The notes under the pieces were generated by a model, which had not been told where the DNA came from, did no database searches, and saw only the letters and a list, made by a program, of their open reading frames with translations. Shown here piece after piece: positions 33,296-55,830 of a stretch of 64,000 nucleotides of DNA (the first letter of the stretch is position 1; each line of letters opens with the position of its first letter). Made by a program: the position numbers and the translations under genes. Source of the stretch: Gemmobacter lutimaris (GTDB taxonomy: Bacteria; Pseudomonadota; Alphaproteobacteria; Rhodobacterales; Rhodobacteraceae); contig NZ_QXXQ01000007.1 in the NCBI RefSeq assembly GCF_003570715.1, forward strand, positions 124,001 to 188,000, written 5' to 3'.

Positions 33296-33529
33296 ATGGC
33301 TGCCGATAAACAAAATTTACAGGACGCTTTCCTGAATCATGTCCGGAAGGCGAAGGTTCCGGTCACCATTTTCCTGATCAACGGGGTGAAGCTTCAGGGC
33401 GTCATCACTTGGTTTGACAACTTCTGTGTCCTGCTGCGCCGCGATGGACAATCGCAGCTTGTTTACAAACATGCGATTTCGACCATCATGCCCGGTGCGC
33501 CGATCAATCTTTACGAGGGTGAAGACTGA
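33296..33529 (+). CDS. hfq: RNA chaperone Hfq
   Basis: Hfq is a hexameric Sm-like protein that pairs small RNAs with mRNAs. The 77-residue product has Sm1 ([21 protein letters not shown]) shortened here to its core, and Sm2 motif YKHAIST. The tail is short and acidic, as usual in alphaproteobacteria. A purine-rich AAAAAAAGGCAATAAAAGA stretch precedes the ATG. Its TGA overlaps the putative start of hflX, keeping the conserved hfq-hflX order. Confidence 0.98.
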
Positions 33530-52924: not shown

Positions 52925-54787
52925 TTACGGTGCCATCCACCAGACATCCGGCGTCACCTCGGGCCAGTCGCCATAAAGCGGCATGGGATCGGGCCGGGTG
53001 ATGCGGCGGTCATGGGCGACACGCGCGACCGGAGAATACCACAGCGGCAGGACATATCTACCCGTCGTGAGCACACGATCAAGTGCGCGTGTTGCGGCGG
53101 TGAATTCCTCCGGATCATCGGTGGTCAGCATGTCGTCGATCATCGCGTCCACGGCAGGCGAGGCGATACCCGGCCAGTTGCGCGAACCGGGCACGGCAGC
53201 GGCGGCCGAACCCCAGTAAAGCCGCTGCTCCGTTCCGGGGCTGAGCGACAGCGCGCGGATGAAATGCGTCATGTCGAAGTTGAAGGCATTCGTGCGTTCG
53301 ACATATTGCGCATTGTCCACCGTGGTCACATGCGCCTTGATGCCCAGCCGCTTCAGCGCCTCGATATAGATAGTCGCCGCACCGATCATGTCGAGCTGGC
53401 CATTGGTCAGCAGGATTTCGAAGGTGAATGGGGCGCCTTCGGCATTGCGCAGCGTGCCGTCCTGCACAGTCCAGCCCGCCTCGGCCAGCAGTTTCGTCGC
53501 CGCGCGCAGGTTCCTGCGGTTGGCGCCGCTGCCGTCGCCCTTGGGCAGGCTGTAGCCCTCCAGCGCGCCGGGCAACAGATCACCGGTGAACGGCTCCAGC
53601 AGCGCACGCTCGCGCCCTTCAGCAGGGGTGTCGGGCAGCATGCCCAAAGGTGAGTTGGAGAAATACGAGGCGATGCGCGGCAGGCTGCCGTCGTTCAGCA
53701 CCGTGTTGGCCTGTTCAAAGTCAAAGGCAAGGATCAGCGCCTCGCGCACGCGCCAGTCGGCGAACAGCGGGCGACGGGTGTTGAAGGCGAACCCCTCGAT
53801 CCCCGAGGGACGGCCATGCGCGATCTCGTCCTTAACCACGTCGCCGCGGGACACCGCCGGGAAATCGAAGTTGCGCAGCCATTTCACCGGATTGGTTTCG
53901 CGGTAAAGCGACAGCTCGCCCGCCTTGAACGCCTCGAACTGTGCGGTGTCGAGCGAGAAATATTCGACCCGGATTTCATCAAAATTCTGCCGCCCGCGAT
54001 TGACCGGCAGATCCTTTCCCCACCAGTCAGGATTCCGACGGAGCGAGAGATAGCGCCCCGGCTCCAGGCCCGCGACGACATAGGGGCCCGAACCAATCGG
54101 CGCCTCCAGCGTGGAGGCGGTGAAATCCTTGCCCTCCCATTGCGCCTTCTTCAGCACCGGGCGCAGACCCAGAAGAAGCGGCAGTTCGCGGTTGGGGCTT
54201 GAAAAGGTGAAGCGGATGCTGCGCTGGCCGGTGATCTCGGCCTTCGACACAGCCGCCCAGGCATTCGCGTATTTCGGGTGTCCCTTGGTGCCCAATGTCT
54301 CGAAAGACCACAGCACGTCGTCCGGCGTGACCGGGCTGCCGTCCGAGAACCGTGCCTCCGCGCGCAGGGTGAATTCGACATAGCTGCGGCTCGAATCAGT
54401 GGTCACAGATTCGGCCAGCAGGCCGTAAAGTGTGAAGGGTTCGTCAAAGCTGCGCGCCATCAGCGTTTCGGTCATGTAGAGCGCCACATAGCGCGGTGCG
54501 ACGCCCTTCAGGATGAATGGGTTGAGACTGTCGAACCCGCCGTTTTCCCCCAGTGTGACGCGGCCCCCCTTGGGGGCATCGGGGTTGGCATAGGGCAGGG
54601 ACACAAAATCCGGTGGCAAGGCCGGGTCACCATACATAGCAATGCCATGCGCGGCTGAGTCGCCCATGGCTGGCGCCGCAGCGAGAATCGCCCCGGCCAG
54701 CAGGGCGATCACGCGAAATTTCCCGAAAAAAACCTGTCTCATTCCGGCGACAATCCTTCGCAGCCCTGTTTTTCTTGGCGCGGACAC
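52925..54787 (-). CDS. Family 5 extracellular solute-binding protein, YejA-like
   Basis: This 620-residue periplasmic binding protein is of the peptide/opine class. A hydrophobic signal segment lies at about residues 24-42 (VIALLAGAILAAAPAMG). The start may be the Met at residue 16 (54742), which gives a more normal signal peptide. The mature N-terminus HGIAMYGDPALPPDF and NPDAPKGGRVTLGE fit YejA, the binding protein of the YejABEF peptide importer. The SBP_bac_5 core covers FSDGSPVTPDDVLWSFET. No permease or ATPase gene follows, so the transporter partner is elsewhere. It is divergent from the small-RNA-like unit. Confidence 0.92.
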   Translation of the reverse strand: MSAPRKTGLRRIVAGMRQVFFGKFRVIALLAGAILAAAPAMGDSAAHGIAMYGDPALPPDFVSLPYANPDAPKGGRVTLGENGGFDSLNPFILKGVAPRYVALYMTETLMARSFDEPFTLYGLLAESVTTDSSRSYVEFTLRAEARFSDGSPVTPDDVLWSFETLGTKGHPKYANAWAAVSKAEITGQRSIRFTFSSPNRELPLLLGLRPVLKKAQWEGKDFTASTLEAPIGSGPYVVAGLEPGRYLSLRRNPDWWGKDLPVNRGRQNFDEIRVEYFSLDTAQFEAFKAGELSLYRETNPVKWLRNFDFPAVSRGDVVKDEIAHGRPSGIEGFAFNTRRPLFADWRVREALILAFDFEQANTVLNDGSLPRIASYFSNSPLGMLPDTPAEGRERALLEPFTGDLLPGALEGYSLPKGDGSGANRRNLRAATKLLAEAGWTVQDGTLRNAEGAPFTFEILLTNGQLDMIGAATIYIEALKRLGIKAHVTTVDNAQYVERTNAFNFDMTHFIRALSLSPGTEQRLYWGSAAAAVPGSRNWPGIASPAVDAMIDDMLTTDDPEEFTAATRALDRVLTTGRYVLPLWYSPVARVAHDRRITRPDPMPLYGDWPEVTPDVWWMAP

Positions 54788-54821
54788 TATTCCGGCAATC
54801 GTGGATTTTCAAACTTTTAAC

Positions 54822-54850
54822 TTGGACTGCACCGCGCCACGCGGTATAAA
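54822..54850 (+). promoter_or_regulatory. Near-consensus sigma70 promoter of the candidate sRNA
   Basis: TTGGAC (54822-54827) and TATAAA (54845-54850) are separated by exactly 17 nt. Each differs from the E. coli consensus at one base. Transcription should start near A54857. Confidence 0.75.
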
Positions 54851-54856
54851 GAACTC

Positions 54857-54932
54857 ACTGCTCGATAGGTTTCTTGCCTGTATGAAACCTGCCTCAAAGA
54901 CTTAACGCCGGCTTCGTGCCGGCGTTTTTTTT
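54857..54932 (+). ncRNA. Candidate small regulatory RNA, about 75 nt
   Basis: A short transcription unit lies between the solute-binding protein gene and bdhA. It starts 7 nt after a near-consensus promoter and ends in a strong intrinsic terminator. Inside it a perfect 7-bp stem AGGTTTC/GAAACCT (54867-54873 and 54884-54890) holds the 10-nt loop TTGCCTGTAT, a natural seed for base-pairing. The only possible peptide is MKPASKT (ATG 54882), without a ribosome site. It could instead be an attenuated leader of bdhA, but 125 nt separate the terminator from that ATG. An Hfq-binding sRNA is plausible, as hfq is in the same genome. I know no matching Rfam family. Confidence 0.65.
54904..54932 (+). terminator. 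Strong intrinsic terminator of the candidate sRNA
   Basis: A 9-bp perfect stem AACGCCGGC-TTCGT-GCCGGCGTT is followed by an uninterrupted run of eight T (54925-54932). No protein gene on the plus strand ends before it. Confidence 0.9.
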
Positions 54933-55056: not shown

Positions 55057-55830
55057 ATGACGCTGAAGGGTAAACGTGCGGTCATCACCGGATCGAACTC
55101 CGGTATCGGTCTTGGCGCCGCCATCGAACTGGCGAAGGCCGGGGCGGATGTGGTGATCAACAGCTTCACCGACCGCGACGAGGATCACGCGCTGGCTGCG
55201 AAAATCGGGGCCGATCACGGGGTCAAGGCGACCTATATCGCCGCCGACATGTCGAAAGCCGAGGATTGCCGTGGCCTGATCGAGAAGGCGGGCGGTTGTG
55301 ACATCCTCGTGAACAATGCGGGTATCCAGTTCGTTTCGCCCATCGAGGATTTCCCGATCGAGAAGTGGAATGCGATCATCGCCATCAATCTGTCGTCGGC
55401 CTTCCATACCACGGCCGCCGCGCTGCCGGGGATGCGCAAGGCTGGCTGGGGGCGGGTGGTCAACATCGCCTCGGCGCATGGGCTGACTGCCTCGCCGTTC
55501 AAATCGGCCTATGTCGCGGCCAAGCATGGCATCGTGGGGCTGACCAAGACTGTTGCGCTGGAAACTGCCGGGCAGGGGATCACCTGCAACGCGATCTGCC
55601 CCGGCTATGTGCTGACCCCGCTGGTCGAGGCGCAGATTCCCGACCAGATGAAGGTGCACAATATGGACCGCGAAACGGTCATCCGTGAGGTCATGCTCGA
55701 TCGTCAGCCCTCGCGCCAGTTCGCAACGGTTGAAGAAATCGGCGGCACTGTGGTCTTTCTGTCCAGTGCCGCGGCGAACCAGATCACCGGGACGACGATC
55801 AGCGTCGATGGTGGCTGGACCGCGATGTGA
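55057..55830 (+). CDS. bdhA: D-3-hydroxybutyrate dehydrogenase
   Basis: BdhA oxidises D-3-hydroxybutyrate, released from poly-hydroxybutyrate, to acetoacetate with NAD. The 257-residue short-chain dehydrogenase has the TGSNSGIG cofactor motif (about 11-18), NNAG, the catalytic Tyr/Lys in SAYVAAKHG and ICPGYVLTPLVEAQI, typical of this enzyme. It ends SVDGGWTAM. GGAG lies about 9 nt before the ATG. Upstream at 54973-54983, CTGC-3 nt-GCAA resembles a PhaR site. The stop overlaps the patatin-like gene start (TGATG), forming a bdhA-patatin operon. Confidence 0.95.
   Translation: MTLKGKRAVITGSNSGIGLGAAIELAKAGADVVINSFTDRDEDHALAAKIGADHGVKATYIAADMSKAEDCRGLIEKAGGCDILVNNAGIQFVSPIEDFPIEKWNAIIAINLSSAFHTTAAALPGMRKAGWGRVVNIASAHGLTASPFKSAYVAAKHGIVGLTKTVALETAGQGITCNAICPGYVLTPLVEAQIPDQMKVHNMDRETVIREVMLDRQPSRQFATVEEIGGTVVFLSSAAANQITGTTISVDGGWTAM

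Follow-up and report, generated by a model that had tools for sequence, protein, structure and literature searches.

A small RNA gene conserved across the Rhodobacteraceae, probably the orthologue of StsR, and its complementarity to the mraZ/dcw leader

The closest described relative of the gene reported here is StsR (RSs0827) of R. sphaeroides. StsR is reported to be a 72-nt RNA that depends on RpoHI/RpoHII and binds Hfq, the small RNA UpsM and the 5' UTR of the dcw cluster (PMC8307010); it leads to cleavage by RNase E and lowers dcw mRNA (PMC11354728). StsR is also reported to slow growth in stationary phase (PMC8307010; PMC11354728). Another published target in that species is the rpoE mRNA, near its start. 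Its partner UpsM (RSs0682) is a leader-derived sRNA of the dcw cluster; as a 5' UTR fragment of mraZ, it differs from the sRNA gene at 54857-54928 that is described below. Paracoccus denitrificans has small intergenic RNAs, 'intergenic 134' (84 nt) and 'intergenic 60' (80 nt), which are described as kept in many Rhodobacteraceae; for 'intergenic 134', both the context and the sequence are reported to resemble those of a putative sRNA of R. sphaeroides (PMC5107571). Either could be the StsR of Paracoccus, the likeness of these RNAs to our locus being one of description, as small intergenic RNAs.

The window analyzed here is a stretch of 64,000 nucleotides from Gemmobacter lutimaris (contig NZ_QXXQ01000007.1). 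It contains the following features, with conservation counted over 60 aligned copies, namely this locus and 59 relatives.

33296-33529, + strand: hfq, the probable partner protein (TIGR02383 and PF17209 above cut-off)
52925-54787, - strand: divergent solute-binding protein gene (PF00496 SBP_bac_5, E 2.4e-63), given here as the longest frame, although translation may begin at an ATG inside it
54806-54821, + strand: AT-rich conserved element TTTTCAAACTTTTAAC directly 5' of the -35 box, a possible UP element or activator site
54822-54827, + strand: -35 box TTGGAC (TTG in 59/60 copies)
54845-54850, + strand: -10 box TATAAA (TATR in 57/60 copies)
54857-54928, at most to 54932, + strand: predicted sRNA, probable StsR orthologue (inferred 5' end)
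54857-54897, + strand: near-invariant core ACTGCTCGATAGGTTTCTTGCCTGTATGAAACCTGCCTCAA (60-copy alignment)
54866-54873 with 54884-54891, + strand: hairpin 1, arms TAGGTTTC/GAAACCTG (predicted fold)
54874-54883, + strand: hairpin 1 loop TTGCCTGTAT
54875-54892 (sRNA nt 19-36), + strand: segment TGCCTGTATGAAACCTGC, complementary to the mraZ/dcw leader
54904-54932, + strand: Rho-independent terminator with 9-bp stem, loop TTCGT and eight T (terminator scan, compensatory changes)
55057-55830, + strand: bdhA, 3-hydroxybutyrate dehydrogenase (TIGR01963 above cut-off)

An earlier note on this DNA had pointed out TTGGAC, 17 nt, TATAAA, a GC-rich 9-bp stem and eight T, and all of these were re-extracted at 54822-54932 (+). 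Its 7-bp stem was seen at 54866-54891, where seven Watson-Crick pairs are joined by one outer U-G, and the hfq gene that it placed at 33.3 kb lies there. The 17-nt spacing of the promoter boxes is kept in 52 of the 60 copies. We placed the 5' end of the RNA near 54857, both from the distance to the -10 box and because conservation begins sharply at ACTGCTCG, the seventh base past that box. With an end between 54928 and 54932, the RNA would be 72-76 nt long. The terminator stem AACGCCGGC/GCCGGCGTT pairs 54904-54912 with 54918-54926 and includes the first two of the eight T (54925-54932). For 54857-54932 the computed folding energy is -26.3 kcal/mol, with a z of -4.06, and 0 of 200 shuffles did as well. 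A scan recovered the same terminator; by itself this would prove little, because such sites are not rare (2 found in 3 kb, 2.9 expected from shuffles). A promoter scan listed no promoter at the sRNA locus, because it requires a T as sixth base of the -10 box, which here reads TATAAA. The Rfam scan of the window gave no family above threshold. No credible coding gene overlaps the sRNA; an 87-aa frame (54642-54905) lies mostly antisense to the solute-binding (transporter) gene that it overlaps. The promoter, hairpin and terminator at 54822-54932 (+) are thus confirmed as real and far above chance.

Conservation extends upstream of the promoter, with a mean of 0.83 at 54806-54827 versus 0.52 at 54780-54805 and 0.50 in the spacer (54828-54842). 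The CAAACTTTTA block within this stretch (54806-54821) is kept in most of the 60 copies and may be an activator site or UP element, or may be shared with the divergent gene.

Among 101 genomes searched, homologues of the sRNA were identified in 59 of the 60 other members of the family. The one exception (G043) is a genome of 74% completeness that has a 13-nt leader site. Among 40 genomes from other families of the class, 10 gave matches, all of at most 31 nt and with E values of 0.0028 or worse. In a larger sample, which took about one genome from each genus of the family, a 34-nt core pattern (up to 3 mismatches) was found in 378 of 394 genomes, and in 340 of the 347 of good quality; G039, one of the 16 misses, carries a diverged copy. 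More than one core copy was present in a single genome (G231), where the copies lie on two contigs and one is at a contig end, so that the second copy is most likely an assembly duplicate.

Within the 60 aligned copies, the core had a mean conservation of 0.99, compared with 0.50 for the promoter spacer and 0.37 past the T run. Of the 41 core columns (54857-54897), 32 show no variation at all, and 40 agree in 58 or more of the 60 sequences. The terminator stem behaves in another manner, with 11 inner types among the 60 sequences, pairing kept, and some types differing by register. A comparison of 32 diverse sequences revealed two-sided changes that preserve pairing at 5 of the 15 consensus pairs, all of them in the terminator; each of these pairs was also disrupted or gapped in 1 to 5 sequences, at least partly through out-of-register alignment. 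The arms of hairpin 1 are identical in 59 of 60 copies, with no pair showing a kept change, and this alignment therefore neither proves nor disproves the hairpin. What keeps its sequence constant is another constraint, such as pairing with a target. The proposal of the earlier note, a stand-alone gene for a trans-acting sRNA, is strongly supported at the sequence level by the promoter, the covarying terminator and the family-wide conservation.

An 18-nt word of the sRNA occurs a second time in many genomes. On the coding strand of these second sites it reads as the reverse complement CAGGTTTCATACAGGCA, which was located upstream of a MraZ-like frame in 15 of 18 fetched loci (the name MraZ was confirmed by profile for the protein of this genome only). 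The frames that follow the MraZ-like frames resemble RsmH. The second-site locus is the start of the dcw cluster, with the complementary site some 200 nt ahead of mraZ. Such a site is present in this genome too, in its mraZ leader on contig 4 (G000, L039/L278).

In order to quantify the complementarity, we scored 58 leader regions of the family (350-751 nt each), from this genome and 57 others. Genomes without a detected MraZ (G007, G032) or with the gene at a contig start (G027) were left out, and the leader of G043 was scored with the RNA of this genome. From sRNA nt 18 onward, uninterrupted Watson-Crick pairing extended over at least 10 nt in 55, at least 12 in 49 and at least 16 in 33 of the 58 leaders. 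Mononucleotide-shuffled leaders reached these lengths in 172, 8 and 0 of 11,600 cases, and the opposite strand did so in 1, 0 and 0 of 58 leaders. The leaders without a run of 10 at sRNA nt 18 onward were those of G018, G024 and G039. Two leaders from other families had 8-nt runs only. Among the matches listed in the core search, 16 further genomes were scored with the consensus core, and 13 of them had runs of 11-17 nt that 0 of 100 shuffles reached. The others had runs that shuffles reach also, of 9 nt in AG-359-E17 and AG-899-B02 and of 10 nt in IMCC1909. In three Neomegalonema records of this set the leader otherwise looks unrelated and the pairing register is shifted; there the site is all or part of TTGAGGCAGGTTTC and its pairing partner falls within sRNA nt 28-41. 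On this basis, the mraZ/dcw leader is the conserved target of the sRNA found by sequence complementarity. A further match, between CTGCTCG of the sRNA and GCGAGCAG of the leader, was present in 47 of the 58 leaders. We regard pairing at this position as a possibility only, and the leader's own fold may also hold that word.

In this genome the leader site CAGGCTTCATACAGGCA has one mismatch, and pairing comprises 12 contiguous pairs (54875-54886), the mismatch at 54887 and then 4 pairs. The best helix reaches -17.9 kcal/mol, which 11 of 300 shuffles also reach. With the folding of both RNAs counted, the gain is -2.4 or -3.9 kcal/mol, depending on the leader cut, and is no better than in shuffled controls (60 shuffles, mean -6.6, sd 2.9). 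The median gain was -17.35 across 52 scored leaders, a value that leans upward because the windows were picked by an anchor word; five leaders without this word were left out. Without accessibility, the duplex energy in this genome had a z of -1.67 against mononucleotide shuffles. Such energies proved uninformative, and we therefore relied on contiguous complementarity.

The locus agrees with StsR in its length, its type of gene, its partner and its bacterial family, and for this reason we file it as the probable orthologue. We hold this assignment with high confidence, and the sRNA is accordingly in all probability not new as a kind. The published 72 nt compare with 72-76 nt predicted here for a gene with its own predicted promoter and Rho-independent terminator. 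Complementarity to the dcw leader, and hence to UpsM, amounts to 12 pairs or more in 49 of 58 leaders, and the genome belongs to the same bacterial family and encodes hfq. The sRNA has a T-rich 3' end, and Hfq binding itself would be expected by analogy. With the transcript start set at 54858, TTG at -36 to -34, C-37, T-13, A-12 and T-11 fit the RpoH promoter rules as given in PMC3441632, and T-9 (RpoHI) and C-14 (RpoHII) do not fit; the same -35 and -10 boxes could be used by the housekeeping sigma factor. On the side of differences stand the mismatch in the leader of this genome and the rpoE mRNA. For rpoE, the gene being named by the chrR that follows it and its start codon being assumed, the best helix in this genome was -8.0 kcal/mol, and 265 of 300 shuffles were as good. 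This lack of visible rpoE pairing, a trait that we do not use to define StsR, speaks for a rival reading, in which the locus encodes another conserved sRNA that has the dcw leader as a target in common with StsR. So does the basis of the match to RSs0827, which was made by anatomy and partner, the R. sphaeroides RNA being known by description and not by its letters. Six words of the core had no match in the paper texts searched, and literature searches for 'StsR' with Rhodobacteraceae, and for 'yejA' with sRNA and Rhodobacteraceae, returned none. A second RNA of this kind is nevertheless improbable, given the single copy per genome outside G231, the agreement in length and the complementarity found in most family leaders, the published partner of StsR. 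It is also countered by a record titled Cereibacter flavus (L175), which has the same core and leader site. NCBI places R. sphaeroides in Cereibacter, and this record was the nearest named one among the matches listed (117 loci), none of which had an R. sphaeroides title. With the start of its leader set 268 nt before mraZ, the complement falls at nt 73-88 and adjoins the position near nt 76 at which a 130-nt fragment out of 206 nt would place it, a comparison that is approximate and made across species.

Other functions were considered as well, and none of them fared well. A transcribed leader or attenuator of bdhA would agree with the position of bdhA, which is read in the same direction, begins 124 nt past the sRNA terminator and is found no more than 1500 nt from the sRNA in 47 of the 60 loci (89 of 117 among the matches listed). 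However, the conserved terminator stands between the two, conservation drops past the T run, and in 13 of the 60 loci the sRNA has no bdhA detected within 1500 nt, a few of the loci being short. By contrast, the divergent transporter gene adjoins the sRNA in 59 of the 60 loci and, among the matches listed from the exact core search, in 106 of 117; all synteny counts are lower bounds, as the sequence of some loci is short. Synteny and conservation thus led us to reject the bdhA leader, which is scarcely tenable. The steady company of the transporter gene could mean that the sRNA regulates it, a role that could exist beside that of StsR. The earlier note had matched AAACCTG of the sRNA with CAGGTTT of the solute-binding gene, and GAAACCTG can indeed pair with CAGGTTTT near an inner start of that gene (8 bp). 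The match is present but does not exceed chance, as 266 of 300 shuffles pair as well. Furthermore, CAGGTTT occurs in 6 of 60 homologous upstream regions, and runs of at least 9 were seen in 2 of 60 such regions versus 74 of 3000 shuffles. We consequently rejected the transporter gene as a target, as the note had suggested it, and hold such regulation to be very unlikely. Finally, ATGAAACCTGCCTCA within the near-invariant core would allow a small coding RNA with a peptide that starts MKPAS. The frame ATGAAACCTG... stops after 5 or 7 codons in 37 of the 60 copies and continues into the terminator in 21, and the start word is absent in 2. Because the end of the frame is set by the variable spacer, the frame is not kept; with ends that differ between species, a coding RNA was rejected and is hardly credible.

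Under the StsR assignment, the gene structure and conservation observed here would provide for an RNA of about 72 nt that is made from a stand-alone promoter and ends at its own terminator. As in R. sphaeroides, induction may occur under stress or in stationary phase. The observed complementarity suggests that the sRNA would then pair, probably with the help of Hfq as the literature on that species implies, with the long leader upstream of mraZ and also with the terminated leader fragment UpsM. Pairing would engage sRNA nt 19-36 with GCAGGTTTCATACAGGCA of the leader, and possibly also the 5' end CTGCTCG with GCGAGCAG, which is located about 50 nt further on. By analogy to R. sphaeroides, pairing may refold the leader and expose it to RNase E, whereupon division and cell-wall genes would go down and growth would slow.

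The near-frozen state of the first 40 bases across the family was mildly surprising. The 40-nt core is unchanged in 56 of 60 genomes, whereas the leader word CAGGTTTCATACAGGC is unchanged in 30 of 58 leaders. The 5' end is no less conserved than the remainder of the core, yet the exact complement of sRNA nt 2-13 had no occurrence outside the sRNA gene in 11 of the 12 genomes examined; one genome (G009) had one more such site. Because the RNA is more conserved than the leader site, and because the site has moved in Neomegalonema, further universal partners appear likely. We tentatively propose that StsR could be a family-wide, almost frozen hub RNA with dcw control as its ancestral job and with further universal RNA or protein partners that fix the 5' 40 nt. 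The contrast between the frozen 5' 40 nt and the drifting target makes for a testable puzzle. The assignment also gives a probable name to an unannotated gene that is present in 378 of 394 sampled family genomes and has no Rfam match in the window. Moreover, it suggests as a rule for the family what has been described in R. sphaeroides, namely stress control of division via an sRNA and the dcw leader.

We also note that the mraZ leader of this genome (G000 contig 4, 26870-27570, L278) contains, 3' of the sRNA site, a stem GGCGGATCGGGC...GCCCGATCCGCC. The sRNA 5' end ACTGCTCGAT could form 10 pairs, G-U included, with ATCGGGCAGT in this stem, and such pairing would open it. At another locus (L055, genome G042), a 16-nt complement of the sRNA begins about 22 nt before the start of a frame that, from the look of its sequence, we call MotB-like and take for a flagellar motor gene; the complement may be an extra target or a chance match.
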